DNA from: Acidimicrobiales bacterium
GTDB taxonomy: Bacteria > Actinomycetota > Actinomycetes > Mycobacteriales > QHCE01
Direction of reading: 5' to 3'
Assembly (NCBI GenBank): GCA_003243955.1
Contig: QHCE01000007.1
Span: 1-56,612 of the forward strand
DNA length: 56,612 nucleotides
Positions within the stretch are counted from its first letter, which is position 1, and every line of letters begins with the position of its first letter. Position numbers and translations under genes: made by a program. Below are positions 1,260-32,672 of this stretch, one piece after another. Below the pieces are notes generated by a model, which saw nothing but the letters and a program-made list of their open reading frames with translations, did no database searches and had not been told where the DNA came from.

Positions 1260-1919
1260 CTACGAAGCGGTATTCAGGCTGACGTAGCCACCCTTGCACT
1301 CCGGGTGTTCGGCCCTGTATGTGCCGCCGTGCCCAATGTTGTCGACGATCGGTGTGCCCTCCTGGCAGAGCGGGCATGCGTCGGCATCAATAGCGGCAAA
1401 GCTGACTGACGTAAGAGTTTCGAGTCTAGGAATACCGAGTTGCTGGGCGGTAACCCCGCCACGATTGCACACAACACTAGCGCCGATCACCTCCGCTCCG
1501 TGGAACTCTGCCTGCCGACAGACCTTTCGCACCGAGCCTCCGGTTGTCAGTAAGTCTTCAACGACGAGAACACGTTTGCCGTACAGCTGCTCGACGAAGC
1601 CCGCGCGTTCGAACGCAAAATCATCACCGTCCTTATCCGCCCATACCGCGCTGACATTGCGGCCAGCATCGCGGAATGCGCGACCCGACAGTACGGACAG
1701 CACAATACCTCCGACTGCGGGTGCTGCAACCGTGTCAATGCTGTCAATGCCATCAAGAAACGGTTTGATCAGGTCGACACAAATGTCAGACATTAAACCA
1801 ACGTTCGGAAAGATGATGTCGAGGTTGATGTAACCGGACCCATGCTTTCCGCTCTTGTACACGAAGTGGTGATCAAGGAATACAGCCCCGGCGCGCTCAA
1901 GTTCGGCCATGATTTCCAT
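1260..1919 (-). CDS. pyrE: orotate phosphoribosyltransferase
   Basis: PRPP-binding motif VLVVEDLLTTGGSV; adjacent to pyrF. Confidence 0.9.
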   Translation of the reverse strand: MEIMAELERAGAVFLDHHFVYKSGKHGSGYINLDIIFPNVGLMSDICVDLIKPFLDGIDSIDTVAAPAVGGIVLSVLSGRAFRDAGRNVSAVWADKDGDDFAFERAGFVEQLYGKRVLVVEDLLTTGGSVRKVCRQAEFHGAEVIGASVVCNRGGVTAQQLGIPRLETLTSVSFAAIDADACPLCQEGTPIVDNIGHGGTYRAEHPECKGGYVSLNTAS

Positions 1920-26579: not shown

Positions 26580-28484
26580 GTGTCGAGCATTCTTGATGTG
26601 CTGTGGCTACTGATCGCGCTGCCGCTGGGAAGTGCGGTGGTGCTGCTACTAGCCGGCCGGCGGGCTGATAGATGGGGACATTACCTTGGCTGCGCCACGG
26701 TGGCTGCCAGCTTCGTACTCGGTGTGTTGGCGTTTCTCGCGCTGCAGGCTCGCACTGACCGTAGCGTCGAGGAAACGCTGTTCCGGTTTCTGGGCGTCGG
26801 AAGCCTCAAGGTTGACATCGGGCTGCTCTACGATCCGTTATCGGCGGTTTTCGTGTTGCTGATCACCGGTGTCGGTCTGCTCATCCACGTATATTCGATC
26901 GGATACATGGCGCACGACTCTGCCCGTCGGCGGTTTTTTGCCTATCTCAATTTGTTCGTTGCGGCGATGCTACTGCTGGTGCTCGCCAATAACTTCGTGG
27001 TTGTGTACATCGGTTGGGAAGGCGTGGGTTTAGCGTCGTATTTACTGATCGCATTCTGGTATTACAAACCGGCTGCTGCCAGTGCGGCTAAGAAAGCCTT
27101 CCTAATGAACCGGGTCGGCGATGTCGGTCTGGCGTTGGCGATCTTCTTGATGTTTGCCAACCTGGGCACCACGTCATATAGCGGAGTCTTCGCTGGGGTA
27201 GGGAACCTTTCTAGCGTCACGGCCACCACAGTGGGGATACTGCTGCTACTGGGCGCTTGCGGTAAGTCTGGCCAGTTTCCGCTGCAGGCGTGGCTGCCCG
27301 ACGCGATGGAAGGCCCCACGCCGGTGTCCGCGCTGATTCACGCCGCGACCATGGTCACCGCTGGGGTGTACCTGATCGTGCGGGCAAGCCCTATCTTCAA
27401 CGCCAGCCCCACCGCTCAACTGATGGTATGCATCGTCGGTGCGGTGACGTTGTTGATTGGGTGCATCATCGGCTGCGCAAAGGACGACATCAAACGGGTG
27501 CTGGCCTATTCTACGATGTCGCAAATCGGCTACATGTTCCTCGCAGCCGGACTGGGCGGTCCGGCCTATGCGTTGGCGATTCTGCACTTGCTCACACACG
27601 GTTTCTTCAAAGCGGGCCTGTTTTTGGGCGCCGGATCGGTGATGCACGGTATGAAAGATCAGACCGATATCCGCCGTTTCGGAGGGCTGGCTCGGGTCAT
27701 GCCGGCGACCGCGATCACGTTCGGGCTGGGCTACTTGGCGATCATTGGGCTTCCTCCGCTGTCTGGTTTCTTTTCTAAAGATCCCATCATCCAGCATGCC
27801 TTCGACCGTCCGGGCTGGAGCGGTTGGGCCTTCGGCGGGGCCGCCCTGCTCGGTGCCGGACTCACCGCGTTCTACATGACGCGTTTGATGGTGCTGACAT
27901 TCTTTGGCCGCCGCCGCTGGGCGGCAGCTTCGGGCGGGCAGCTGCCCGAACCGAAAGAGTCGCCGTGGGTGATGACTGCCCCGATGGGAGCGCTCGCGGT
28001 CGGTTCAGTCGCCGCTGGTTTTTTGCTCAGCAACGCTGACGCGCTGAGCAACTGGCTCGCACCGGTAGTCGGCGCGCCGGTGGAATCTGTTGCACACAAG
28101 CTGGAGCCGCTCACGGTTACGTGGTCGGTGCTGGGGGCTGTGATGTTGGGCGTGGTGATAGCGGCGGCGATGTTCGCGCGCGGCACCGCGCGCAGCGAAC
28201 CCGTAACCGCCAACCCGATCGTGCTTGCCGCGCGGCGCAACTTGTATGCCGACGTGATTAACGAGGCGGTTTTTGTGCGCCTGGGTGCGTGGGCGATGCG
28301 GGTGTTGGTGTTCGTTGATAGTCGGGGTGTGGACGGCACGATCAACGGTTTGGCGGCAGTGTGTGGGGGGACGTCTGCCCGGCTGCGCCGGCTGCAAACC
28401 GGTTTCGTCCGTTCTTATTCGCTGACCATGCTTGTTGGTGTGGTCGCGGTGATACTCGCGTTTTCTCTGGCAGTTTTTCGATAG
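26580..28484 (+). CDS. nuoL: NADH-quinone oxidoreductase subunit L
   Basis: GWEGVGLASYLLIAFWY; LQAWLPDAMEGPTPVSALIHAATMVTAGVYL. Confidence 0.96.
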   Translation: MSSILDVLWLLIALPLGSAVVLLLAGRRADRWGHYLGCATVAASFVLGVLAFLALQARTDRSVEETLFRFLGVGSLKVDIGLLYDPLSAVFVLLITGVGLLIHVYSIGYMAHDSARRRFFAYLNLFVAAMLLLVLANNFVVVYIGWEGVGLASYLLIAFWYYKPAAASAAKKAFLMNRVGDVGLALAIFLMFANLGTTSYSGVFAGVGNLSSVTATTVGILLLLGACGKSGQFPLQAWLPDAMEGPTPVSALIHAATMVTAGVYLIVRASPIFNASPTAQLMVCIVGAVTLLIGCIIGCAKDDIKRVLAYSTMSQIGYMFLAAGLGGPAYALAILHLLTHGFFKAGLFLGAGSVMHGMKDQTDIRRFGGLARVMPATAITFGLGYLAIIGLPPLSGFFSKDPIIQHAFDRPGWSGWAFGGAALLGAGLTAFYMTRLMVLTFFGRRRWAAASGGQLPEPKESPWVMTAPMGALAVGSVAAGFLLSNADALSNWLAPVVGAPVESVAHKLEPLTVTWSVLGAVMLGVVIAAAMFARGTARSEPVTANPIVLAARRNLYADVINEAVFVRLGAWAMRVLVFVDSRGVDGTINGLAAVCGGTSARLRRLQTGFVRSYSLTMLVGVVAVILAFSLAVFR

Positions 28485-30028
28485 TGGCGGTGTCTGGTTT
28501 TATGGCTCATGTTCCGTTGTTCAGTCTGCTGATCGCGGTCCCGCTGCTGGGCGTGGCGCTCATCGCGCTGCTGCCGCGCAGAGCGGAGCAGCTGGCCAAG
28601 CCGATCGCGCTAGGCGCCGCGCTGGTAGTTTTCTCTGGCACGGTCGCCATGTGGTTCGGCTGGCGCACCGACGGCCCACGTTTCCAGTATCCCGAGAGCT
28701 ACACCTGGATTCCGCAGTTCGGCAGCGCTTTTACGTTGGGAGCCGACGGTATAGCGGCGGTCATGGTGGCGCTGGTCGGCGTGCTGGTGCCGATTGTGGT
28801 GCTGGCCTCTTGGCATGATGCCGAGCCGGGCAAACATAGCGTGCGGGCTTTCTTTGCGTTGGTGCTGGTGCTGGAAAGCTTCATGCTGGGCGTGTTCGCC
28901 GCCACTGACGTGTTGGTTTTCTACGTGTTTTTTGAAGTCATGCTGGTCCCGATGTATTTCCTGATCAGTTCCTATGGCGGTCCACGCCGGCAGTACGCCG
29001 CGGTGAAGTTTTTTCTGTATTCACTGGTAGGGGGGCTGCTGATGCTCGCCTCAGTGATCGGGCTGTACGCGATTAGCTCGAATCAGCTGGGGAAAGGAAC
29101 ATTCTCCTTTGAGGCGTTGCTGTCGCTGCACATTGATCCAGTCACACAGCGTTGGCTGTTCTTGGGATTCTTTATCGCGTTCGCGATCAAGGCGCCGCTG
29201 ATACCGTTCCACACCTGGTTGCCCGATGCTAGCGCTCAGGCTCCCATAGGAGTGTCTGTACTACTGGTCGGAGCGCTCGATAAGGTCGGCACCTACGGCA
29301 TGCTGCGGTACTGCCTTCCGCTATTTGGCAGCGCCGCCTACGATTTCGCTCCCTGGATCATTGGCCTTTCCGTCGCCGGGATCCTCTATGGCGCGATACT
29401 CGCTGTGGGGCAGAGCGATATGAAGCGCCTGGTCGCCTACACCTCGATCGCCCATTTCGGCTTCATCGCGTTGGGAGTATTTGCCTTCACCGCTCAGGCC
29501 GGCACGGGCGCGGTGCTGTATATGGTCAACCATGGGCTATCCGTCGGAGCGCTGTTTCTGGTCGTCGGCTTCCTGATTTCGCGGCGGAACTCCTCGCTGA
29601 TATCGGACTTCGGCGGGATGGCGCGTCTGATGCCATGGATCGCTGGTGTCTTCTTGATCGCTGGGCTATCAGCGCTGTCGTTGCCGGGCACGAACTCGTT
29701 CGCAAGCGAGTTTTTGATCCTTATCGGCGCCTTCGGTGCCCATAAAGCGGCCACTATCGTTGCCACGGTGGGCATTATCTTTGCCGCGTTGTTTGTGTTG
29801 TGGCTGTATCAGCAGACCATGCATGGTCCGCTGATACCGGAGCTAGCCGTCACCGATTCCCCTGCTCGGCTGGCGGTCAGGGATATCACCCGTCGTGAAG
29901 TGGCTGTTATTTCGCCGTTGATCGGGTTGATCTTGCTGTTGGGTGTATATCCGCAGCCAGTGATCGACGTGATTAACCCTGCCGTGGACCGTACGCTCGC
30001 CGATCTACATATCAGCTCCGGAAGGTAA
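28484..30028 (+). CDS. nuoM: NADH-quinone oxidoreductase subunit M
   Basis: FEVMLVPMYFLI; IPFHTWLPDASAQAPIGVSVLL; in-frame GTG overlapping the nuoL stop. Confidence 0.94.
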   Translation: MAVSGFMAHVPLFSLLIAVPLLGVALIALLPRRAEQLAKPIALGAALVVFSGTVAMWFGWRTDGPRFQYPESYTWIPQFGSAFTLGADGIAAVMVALVGVLVPIVVLASWHDAEPGKHSVRAFFALVLVLESFMLGVFAATDVLVFYVFFEVMLVPMYFLISSYGGPRRQYAAVKFFLYSLVGGLLMLASVIGLYAISSNQLGKGTFSFEALLSLHIDPVTQRWLFLGFFIAFAIKAPLIPFHTWLPDASAQAPIGVSVLLVGALDKVGTYGMLRYCLPLFGSAAYDFAPWIIGLSVAGILYGAILAVGQSDMKRLVAYTSIAHFGFIALGVFAFTAQAGTGAVLYMVNHGLSVGALFLVVGFLISRRNSSLISDFGGMARLMPWIAGVFLIAGLSALSLPGTNSFASEFLILIGAFGAHKAATIVATVGIIFAALFVLWLYQQTMHGPLIPELAVTDSPARLAVRDITRREVAVISPLIGLILLLGVYPQPVIDVINPAVDRTLADLHISSGR

Positions 30029-30031
30029 CGC

Positions 30032-31696
30032 ATGATTGAGTCACTCGGGGCGCACGTCGCGGCACTCTATAGCGCGAAGCCAGGGAGCGTGCACGCGCCA
30101 TCGATCGATTACGCGGCACTGTCGCCGATCCTGATCGTGCTCGGCGCTGCGTGTTTGGGGATCGTCGTGGAAGCTTTTTCCCCGCGTCGTGCGCGCCGCG
30201 CCATCCAGTTTGTGCTTGCTGTCGCCGCCTTGCTGACCGCTGGAGCCGCCGTTGTCTGGCAGGCGGGCGCAAACCTCACCACCGCCTCCGGCGCGGTGGC
30301 CATCGATTCGGCTGGGTTGTTCTTCCAAGGCAGCATCATTGTGCTGGGATTACTTGCTGTGCTGCTGATTGCTGAGCAGAAACTGGAGCGCGGCGGGGCA
30401 TTTGCTGTCCAGCCGGCTGGGCCGGATCGATCTGTCAGTTCAGGTACCGGAGGCGTTGGGGGCACTCAGGGCGCCGGGGTCGCTGGGGGAGCCGGGGGTA
30501 TGGCGAGTTCGGAATCCGTGCGAGTTCCCACGAACACTGAGGTTTTTCCGCTCACGATGTTTGCGCTGGCCGGGATGTTGCTGTTCGTTACCGCGAATGA
30601 TCTTCTAGTGATGTTCGTTGCGCTGGAAGTGTTATCCCTTCCGTTGTATCTGCTCTGTGGTCTCGCTAGACGCCGCCGGCTGCTTTCGCAGGAAGCGGCG
30701 ATGAAGTACTTCCTCTTGGGGGCGTTCGCCTCCGCGTTCTTCCTATACGGTGTTGCGCTGCTGTATGGCTACGCTGGAACGGTATCGCTGGGGGGTATTG
30801 CAGGCGCTATTGCGCATGGCCCCAGCCCAACCTTGGGTGGACACGCTAGCCAGACGCTGCTGTTGCTGGGGCTTTCGCTGCTGATCGTGGGATTGTTGTT
30901 TAAAGCGGGTGCGGCGCCGTTTCATTCCTGGACACCGGACGTGTACCAAGGCGCCCCTACGCCGATAACCGCACTCATGGCGGCCTGCACCAAGGTCGCC
31001 GCTTTCGGTGCTATTGCCCGTGTGCTTTATATCTGCTTTGACAAAGCCGCACAGGACTGGCGGCCCATTCTGATCACAGTAGCTATCGTCACCATGGTGA
31101 CGGGAGCCGTCCTGGCTATCACTCAGACAGACATCAAACGGCTGCTGGCGTACTCCTCGATCGCCAATGCTGGTTTCATTCTCACCGGAACAGTGACGTT
31201 GAGTGCGGCCGGCTTGTCGGCCACCATGTTTTACCTTGTCGCATATGGTTTCATGACGCTGGGCGCGCTGGGTGTGGTGATGACCGTTCGTGACGCTGGT
31301 GGCGAAGCCAATCACATTTCGCGCTGGGCAGGGCTCGCGCGCCGCTCTCCAGCGGTGGCTGGTGTCATGACGTTTTTCCTGCTTGCTTTCGCTGGCATTC
31401 CGTTAACGAGTGGATTCACCAGTAAGTTTGCGGTGTTTTCGGCAGCATTTGGTGCTGGACGGTTGGAGCTGGTGATCGTCGGTGTGATCGCCAGCATGGT
31501 GTTGGTTTTTCCGTATCTGCGGCTGGTGGTGTTGATGTATGCCGCAGAACCAGCGGCCGATAGCGCCACCGTCCAGCTTCCGGGTGGTCCAACTCGGCTG
31601 GCGATCGCAGTGGGGGCGCTGGCGACGCTGGCATTGGGTGTAGCACCGGGACCACTGCTGCAGTTAGCCAGCAATGCGGCCCACTTCGTGGCGTGA
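30032..31696 (+). CDS. nuoN: NADH-quinone oxidoreductase subunit N
   Basis: APFHSWTPDVYQGAPTPITALMAACTK. Confidence 0.95.
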   Translation: MIESLGAHVAALYSAKPGSVHAPSIDYAALSPILIVLGAACLGIVVEAFSPRRARRAIQFVLAVAALLTAGAAVVWQAGANLTTASGAVAIDSAGLFFQGSIIVLGLLAVLLIAEQKLERGGAFAVQPAGPDRSVSSGTGGVGGTQGAGVAGGAGGMASSESVRVPTNTEVFPLTMFALAGMLLFVTANDLLVMFVALEVLSLPLYLLCGLARRRRLLSQEAAMKYFLLGAFASAFFLYGVALLYGYAGTVSLGGIAGAIAHGPSPTLGGHASQTLLLLGLSLLIVGLLFKAGAAPFHSWTPDVYQGAPTPITALMAACTKVAAFGAIARVLYICFDKAAQDWRPILITVAIVTMVTGAVLAITQTDIKRLLAYSSIANAGFILTGTVTLSAAGLSATMFYLVAYGFMTLGALGVVMTVRDAGGEANHISRWAGLARRSPAVAGVMTFFLLAFAGIPLTSGFTSKFAVFSAAFGAGRLELVIVGVIASMVLVFPYLRLVVLMYAAEPAADSATVQLPGGPTRLAIAVGALATLALGVAPGPLLQLASNAAHFVA

Positions 31697-31703
31697 AGTG
31701 GTC
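31625..31703 (+). repeat. left direct repeat: native nuoN 3' end
   Basis: 79 nt, 70 identical to 32594-32672. Confidence 0.9.
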
Positions 31704-31731: not shown

Positions 31732-32400
31732 TCAGCGGCTAGTTGCATGCAATGCCACTGGTCGGGTGGCGAGCGTACTGCGGACTGTGGAGTGGGCTTC
31801 GATCCAGTTTCGTAGTTGCGGGTTGATCCACTGGACAAGGGTGAGTAGATCGTTGTGGTGCTGTGCGAGCGGTTGTCGATGGATGGGCTCATGGTGAGCG
31901 ATGCGATTACGTAGCCCATGGAGGCGGGAAAGCCGATCATGTAGTGGCCTTCTGCGTGGCTGACCAGCAAAACCGTGGTGCAAACACCATCGCCACAGAG
32001 TCAGCTCGTAATGTCCGGATACTAGGAACCGCCAGAATCCTAAGGGTATTTCGGCAATGACTCGACCGGGGGTTTCAGGTTTAGGCCGATGACCATCGGT
32101 TAGCCGGGCACGCGCTATTGCGATGTCTGTTGTTCTGCGCGGCGTCAAAATACCCGCAGGGTCCAGATACCAGCGGGGCTCATTGTGTTGTTTGATGCTC
32201 CACTGAGTGAGCTGCATATGCATGGCGTTGCGAACAAAAATCTCAAGGTGCGCAATGTCTATCCAGAAGGCGCCAGATATGGCGGCATTCCAAATATAGA
32301 GCTGTACGGCTGCATCAAGGTCACCGCCACTAACGTGGCAGTAGGGCGATAGTCGTTCAACGGATATCGCTTCCTCAACAGTGGTCACTGACTTAGCCAC
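31732..32400 (-). CDS. Abi_2-family (AbiD/AbiF-like) HEPN abortive-infection protein
   Basis: LSPYCHVSGGDLDAAVQLYIWNAAISGAFWIDIAHLEIFVRNAMH; HEPN RxxxxH motif in GLRNRIAHHEPI; GTG start. Confidence 0.85.
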   Translation of the reverse strand: MAKSVTTVEEAISVERLSPYCHVSGGDLDAAVQLYIWNAAISGAFWIDIAHLEIFVRNAMHMQLTQWSIKQHNEPRWYLDPAGILTPRRTTDIAIARARLTDGHRPKPETPGRVIAEIPLGFWRFLVSGHYELTLWRWCLHHGFAGQPRRRPLHDRLSRLHGLRNRIAHHEPIHRQPLAQHHNDLLTLVQWINPQLRNWIEAHSTVRSTLATRPVALHATSR

Positions 32401-32402
32401 AT

Positions 32403-32476
32403 CGAGCCCTTTCGTGTATGCTCGTTTTGTACACCCCGGTGGCCTCTACCCGCGAGAGCGGGCACGACGCCGGGGT
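32403..32476 (-). ncRNA. candidate structured RNA upstream of the Abi_2 gene (hairpin plus H-type pseudoknot)
   Basis: stem 32433-32439/32470-32476, inner stem 32449-32453/32458-32462, and interleaved stems 32430-32434/32414-32418 with 32420-32424/32403-32407. Confidence 0.6.
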
Positions 32477-32593
32477 TTCGTATGTTACGGAGTATCCGCC
32501 TTGCCTAGACGGGGCTCCATGACCGGCCTAGATTTTTCTGCCCGGCTGGCCGTGCTTTAACCGGCACGGAACGCTTACCAAGCTGCAGTGGAG

Positions 32594-32672
32594 GCGCTGG
32601 CCTTGGGTGTGGCACCGGGGCCGCTGCTGGAGTTAGCCAGCAACGCGGCTCACTTCGTAGCGTGAAGTGGTC
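32594..32672 (+). repeat. right direct repeat: orphan copy of the nuoN 3' end
   Basis: encodes ALALGVAPGPLLELASNAAHFVA*; 88.6% identical to 31625-31703. Confidence 0.9.

Follow-up and report, generated by a model that had tools for sequence, protein, structure and literature searches.

The toxin gene and its product

The window (the whole analyzed stretch of 56,612 nucleotides, from contig QHCE01000007.1 of an Acidimicrobiales bacterium) contains on its minus strand an intact open reading frame with a GTG start (31732..32400) that specifies a 222-residue protein of predicted AbiF type, and next to its start a short structured element (32426..32489) that is predicted to be an RNA gene of the plus strand. 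The reading frame and the RNRIAH motif of its product are as the first-pass annotation of this DNA had described them.

The AlphaFold (AF2) model of the protein (pLDDT 92.7, pTM 0.87) has as its best fold match in the PDB entry 8vz6, the PbAbiF dimer with its ncRNA (Foldseek probability 1.00, TM 0.62 by query length, E 0.017); all other matches have probabilities of 0.06 or less. Sequence identity to PbAbiF is 16%, and a sequence search of the PDB yields only 8vz6 as a match of note, at E 0.82. RNRIAH conforms to the HEPN R-polar-xxx-H pattern, and residues R57-N58 and R164-N165-R166-x-x-H169-H170 are invariant in an alignment of 15 members of the family. On the basis of the structural model, the product is a HEPN protein with an AbiF fold. 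(The prior assignment of the gene to Abi_2, PF07751, is borne out by fold and motif and not by the Pfam profile itself: the window protein scores 18.5 bits against a gathering threshold of 25.6. Matches to Abi_2 are also weak in 14 of 15 relatives, the best being 1.5e-7; some plasmid relatives pass the threshold.)

The nearest defense profile is that of PD-T4-5, at E 3.2e-7 over residues 8-65 (a PADLOC profile E-value, not a system call). Among the 15 relatives, the PD-T4-5 profile is matched by all 15 (best 2.3e-17) and the AbiD profile by 13. PD-T4-5 is a validated anti-T4 system of E. coli plasmids, a distant relative of AbiF/D with toxin-antitoxin-like character (PMC9519451).

Distribution and genome setting

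The same 2.4-Mb genome has four further Abi loci, one of them broken, for a total of five copies. Relatives of the toxin are found in 22 of 101 genomes at the level of the order and 73 of 395 at the level of the class, at no fewer than 518 places in the genome collection, and in 779 plasmid records; judged by these sequence matches, the toxin family is large. Plasmids pZZM401 of Zymomonas mobilis ZM4 (toxin gene at 28438-29112) and pCG4 of Corynebacterium glutamicum each hold a relative. On contig C29 of the window's genome (3381-19485), three Abi copies, one broken, lie within ~16 kb, each with its own RNA.

In the window, an 84-nt direct repeat (88% identical; 31620-31703 and 32589-32672) brackets the toxin-RNA cassette. 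The repeated sequence is the 3' end of a nuoN-like gene, stop codon included, and is found nowhere else in the genome, which suggests that a ~1-kb cassette was inserted at this end of the gene. In plasmid relatives (L329, L330, L332, L333, L336 and L337) the toxin gene is often preceded, at a distance of ~130-155 nt, by a small co-directional gene, which on C. glutamicum pCG4 belongs to the YfbU family. Because of these co-directional genes, transcription of the toxin gene may begin at a promoter further upstream and run through the RNA gene.

A conserved structured RNA at the toxin gene

Read on the plus strand, the element consists of an outer stem with 5' arm ACCCCGG (32433..32439) and 3' arm CCGGGGT (32470..32476, followed by TTCG), enclosing a GGCCTCT core (AAGCCTCT; 32441..32447) and an apical hairpin, CCCGC-GAGA-GCGGG (32449..32462). 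The outer stem is a palindrome, and its arms had been located in the first-pass annotation at the same sites in the minus-strand reading (ACCCCGG at 32476-32470, CCGGGGT at 32439-32433), together with the internal CCCGC/GCGGG hairpin.

A GC-rich hairpin with conserved internal loops is anchored upstream of the toxin gene in 100 of 144 relatives; in two rounds of simple search, 35 and 44 of the 144, respectively, gave no hairpin. In an alignment of 66 homologues (A2), a 15-pair structure forms in 91.6% of cells, as against 81.6% in shuffled alignments and at most 47% when the pairing is slid out of register. Cells in which both partners have changed number 102 (34 in shuffles), with changes on both sides in 10 of the 15 pairs, and none of 500 shuffles equalled these pairing and double-change values. 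The compensatory changes fall in a pair of inner helices that flank a conserved CUCU. Thus the covariation analysis that the earlier annotation had proposed for its stems favors an RNA, and the conservation of the outer stem and internal hairpin has been upheld.

A covariance model built from these sequences (R1) matches the window's genome at five sites and no more, one beside each Abi copy and all on the strand opposite to the toxin gene. The window RNA, at 49.7 bits, is the lowest-scoring of the five. (R1 E-values are rough, and the sequences used in training match by construction.) Distances between RNAs follow distances between toxins (Mantel r 0.58, not equalled in 2000 permutations), which shows, at the level of sequence, co-inheritance rather than binding. 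By these comparative criteria, a conserved structured RNA adjoins the toxin gene. A strong R1-type RNA (56 bits) also occurs at 1501-1561, minus strand, of L204, in an actinobacterial genome with Abi copies at other loci; a hidden Abi gene was sought beside this RNA and none was found.

Predicted strand and promoter of the RNA

Ten nt before the stem on the plus strand lies TATGCT (32417..32422), a predicted -10 element whose position is conserved in homologues: on the opposite strand, 71 of 79 non-redundant loci have a TAnnnT hexamer 9-12 nt (mostly 11) before the stem (shuffles: mean 4, maximum 12), as against 2 of 78 on the gene strand. A -35 element matching at four or more of six positions, at a spacing of 16-18 nt, accompanies the hexamer at 43 of the 71 loci (0.4 in shuffles), and perfect TTGACA is present at 10 loci. 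In the window the corresponding element is a predicted weak -35, TAGCCA (32394..32399; four of six positions, 17-nt spacing), which overlaps the toxin start codon. The start codon stands over the -35 element in this same register at 31 of the 71 loci, and the overlap is apparent in the sequence itself, ATGTCAA on the gene strand being TTGACAT on the other. Hexamers that can be read as -10 elements on both strands (TAnnnTA) occur at only ~7 loci, and a search of the gene strand found no promoter at a constant position on either side of the hairpin.

The phage locus L115 has TTGACA-18-TATAAT, then the hairpin, then a run of T. Ten proteobacterial plasmid relatives (L358-L365, L367 and L368) have TTGAYR-17-TATRNT or a close variant on the opposite strand, followed on that strand by a conserved RNA body and an intrinsic terminator, whose stem varies in sequence between plasmids while its pairing is kept and a T tract follows; L366 is the exception to this pattern. 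(A simple scan finds no good promoter in L332, L333 and L337.) The RNA of these ten loci, which lies opposite Abi-like genes, is a second subtype, ACTAGCCACGGGACT..GCCTCCCCCCGAGGACATACGATAG with a terminator; the smallest of the plasmids is 3.6 kb. It has no Rfam family, and most of the proteobacterial plasmid RNAs, being of a different subtype, are not matched by R1.

On the opposite-strand reading, G.U cells outnumber A.C cells by 31 to 19 (29 to 13 when one badly aligned pair is left out), a wobble excess that weakly favors this strand. Promoters, terminators, wobbles, the abiF-like core and the orientation of solitary phage copies (see below) agree, and the RNA is predicted to be transcribed from the plus strand, away from the toxin gene, rather than being simply the 5' leader of toxin mRNA. 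The gene-strand RNA of the first-pass annotation is accordingly not what the promoter signal of the homologues points to.

The window copy has lost the conserved GAAG leader, has one mismatch in its inner stem, and has no strong terminator at its locus. With its weak -35, diverged 5' leader and inner-stem mismatch, it may be less active than other members of the family.

Relation to abiF RNA and to known systems

In the AbiF system of Clostridioides difficile phages, the abiF RNA, RCd22, binds AbiF and neutralizes it in trans; the catalytic R and H of the toxin are required for its action, and the RNA, encoded on the same strand as the gene, is co-transcribed with it (PMC12373285). The Rfam model of abiF RNA (RF03085) has no match in the window leader even at E<=10, so that direct membership in the Rfam family, as entertained for this locus before, does not hold; what stands of that proposal is an AbiF-like HEPN gene with a conserved RNA of abiF character. 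The model also has no match in 13 relatives at E<=1, and at permissive thresholds Rfam offers no family for the window RNA. As a positive control, RF03085 does match in C. difficile phage phiC2, with the abiF RNA just upstream of the gene and on the same strand. (There is likewise no match in 149 genomes of the phylum, but a control set is also without a match, so this is not evidence of absence.)

The resemblance is in the consensus. That of Rfam abiF RNA is CCCGCC-A-AGC-CUCU..GCU-CAAAUC-GGCGGG; that of the opposite-strand RNA (A2) is ACCCCGG-nn-cGGC-CUCU-GCC..GGC-AY-GCCg-CCGGGGU. The GCCUCU core and the inner pairs are common to both, and the A2 consensus has the outer stem, bulge, GC inner pairs and CUCU loop of RCd22-type RNA. 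Four classical abiF RNAs are in turn matched by R1 over their core, weakly and on the strand from which they are read. The missing Rfam match is attributable to the lower stem, which is a variant.

The locus thus resembles AbiF/RCd22 in combining an Abi_2-kind HEPN toxin with a cognate structured RNA immediately upstream. It differs in that the RNA lies on the opposite strand with its own predicted promoter and is without the CAAAU lower loop; the same-strand order is not what is found here (promoter hexamers at 71/79 loci opposite, 2/78 on the gene strand). The likeness to PbAbiF-AbiFr, a protein-RNA pair described in PMC12737573, is one of protein fold. PD-T4-5 has been described as a single gene, and comparison with it is through its profile relatives: L329-L331 and L358 have the opposite-strand promoter, and L331 and L358 also the terminator.

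Type III toxin-antitoxin systems such as ToxIN are comparable in that the RNA antitoxin would here, too, act on a protein. Their toxin has a different fold, and their repeated RNA is read on the toxin's strand.

Solitary RNAs in phages

A scan of viral contigs for the core pattern yielded 19 contigs, 10 of which have confident R1 matches (>33 bits), only one with an Abi gene beside it; the count of orphans is approximate because some contigs are near-duplicates and some matches lie near contig ends. (A second search pattern found nothing.) R1-type RNAs with no neighboring Abi gene lie directly after a tRNA-Asn (L357, 3703-3759), in short gaps of head-tail operons (L348, 785-842; L354, 2108-2165) and elsewhere on phage contigs (L343, 4812-4870; L347, 39-96; L350, 608-669). 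With the tRNAs, abiF RNA and structural genes beside them as reference, the phage copies are mostly oriented as in the opposite-strand reading, L350 being an exception.

In a non-coding stretch of ~530 nt on the IMG/VR contig L266 (8056-8581), a single strand holds a tRNA-Val, a second, weak match to abiF, an Rfam abiF RNA (50.8 bits), a tRNA-Asn, a tmRNA-like segment and an R1-type RNA, and the stretch has no Abi gene. It is possible, from this arrangement, that the stretch is an array of decoy antitoxin RNAs. Among viral contigs L207-L286 of the pattern scan, most classical abiF RNAs are also without a nearby AbiF-like gene; only L252 clearly has one, on the same strand.

Phages are known to encode solitary copies of a defense system's RNA as RNA anti-CRISPRs, or Racrs (PMC10651486). 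Analogy with these suggests that the phage orphans are decoys of a comparable kind, with the differences that they resemble AbiF-type antitoxins and that their decoy role is putative.

Interpretation and alternatives

The locus is likely, in our judgment, to be a two-component system of AbiF type, in which a HEPN ribonuclease toxin encoded on the minus strand and a ~60-nt divergent abiF-type RNA encoded on the plus strand form a phage-defense toxin-antitoxin pair; by analogy with the characterized systems it is probably a two-part phage-defense switch whose RNA half has been overlooked. The protein fold and motif, the RNA structure and its covariation, the predicted RNA strand in homologues and the presence of one RNA per toxin have been computed here; transcription, binding, inhibition, toxicity and defense are parts of the proposal that we infer.

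The mechanism might be as follows. From a promoter situated between the two genes and reaching into the toxin start codon, the RNA would be made continuously, most likely folding into a stem, an internal loop and a GCC hairpin. The folded RNA would keep the HEPN dimer inactive, as suggested by RCd22-AbiF and PbAbiF-AbiFr. When host transcription is disrupted, as in phage takeover, or when the element is lost, the RNA would run out, and the freed toxin would cleave cellular RNA, aborting the infection. A further layer of control may be superimposed: RNA polymerase at the RNA promoter would occupy the start of the toxin gene, and toxin mRNA coming from further upstream would carry the complement of the RNA.

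Such complementarity could also be the basis of the whole mechanism, the opposite-strand RNA acting in a type I-like manner by base-pairing with upstream-initiated toxin mRNA and not by binding protein. The position of the RNA gene, between the toxin gene and its upstream sequence, makes any longer toxin mRNA complementary to the RNA; the lack of a gene-strand promoter at a fixed place and the co-directional genes just upstream in several plasmid relatives are in keeping with such a transcript. Perfect antisense, however, needs neither a conserved internal-loop sequence nor compensatory changes, the core matches that of abiF RNA, for which the characterized system shows protein binding (PMC12373285), and the orphan copies of phages have no adjacent mRNA to pair with. 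We regard antisense action in place of protein binding as unlikely.

AbiF has been proposed as the ancestor of Cas13, which is guided by crRNA (PMC12737573), and AbiF RNA as the forerunner of the guide, raising the idea that the RNA activates or guides the HEPN protein and is not an antitoxin. Yet the loop is of variable length and has no spacer-like segment, the window's genome has one RNA per toxin and no arrays, and the abiF RNAs examined to date are toxin inhibitors (PMC12373285); a Cas13-like role is quite improbable.

The first-pass annotation had placed the structure in the 5' leader of toxin mRNA, with an H-type pseudoknot ending at the start codon and in a position to control translation. 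The hairpin does fold on the minus strand as well (z -3.39), and the complementarity exists: GTGTA (32434-32430) with TACAC (32418-32414), interleaved with CGAGC (32424-32420) and GCTCG (32407-32403). The pseudoknot is nonetheless no commoner than chance predicts, and it is not conserved. When the 100-nt leader is shuffled with dinucleotides preserved, 676 of 5000 shuffles contain two interleaved perfect 5-bp stems; over a comparable 45 nt, such stems occur in one of 79 homologous leaders (that of the window), with 0.5 expected; and the first arm overlaps the outer stem by two bases. The region of the pseudoknot and of its GAAAGG is instead the conserved place of the opposite-strand promoter (TATGCT, 32417-32422, plus strand), and the terminators of relatives are also on that other strand. 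A translation-controlling leader is thus a very remote prospect. Least credible is the palindrome's being only a DNA operator or transcription terminator with no functional RNA: a GC-rich stem beside a promoter, with a T-rich tract following on the plus strand, is what such an element would look like, but the compensatory changes of the inner helices flanking CUCU, and a core in common with abiF RNA, are not.

Implications

Extending the toxin-antitoxin reading to the family leads to a broader conjecture that, as we weigh it, stands about evenly between true and false: that a large branch of AbiF-type systems, PD-T4-5 included, consists of a toxin and a hidden RNA antitoxin encoded on the opposite strand, its promoter lying over the toxin start, and that the orphan RNAs of phages, some arrayed with classical abiF RNAs and tRNAs, serve anti-defense. 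Such a branch, with its RNA inverted, would be widespread, missed by Rfam and represented in annotations mostly by lone 'Abi family' or 'hypothetical' genes. If the conjecture is true, the list of loci to be treated as two-component systems has to be redrawn, and cloning and testing of such genes should take in the upstream region as well. RNA-based counter-defense of phages against AbiF-type toxins would then become directly testable.
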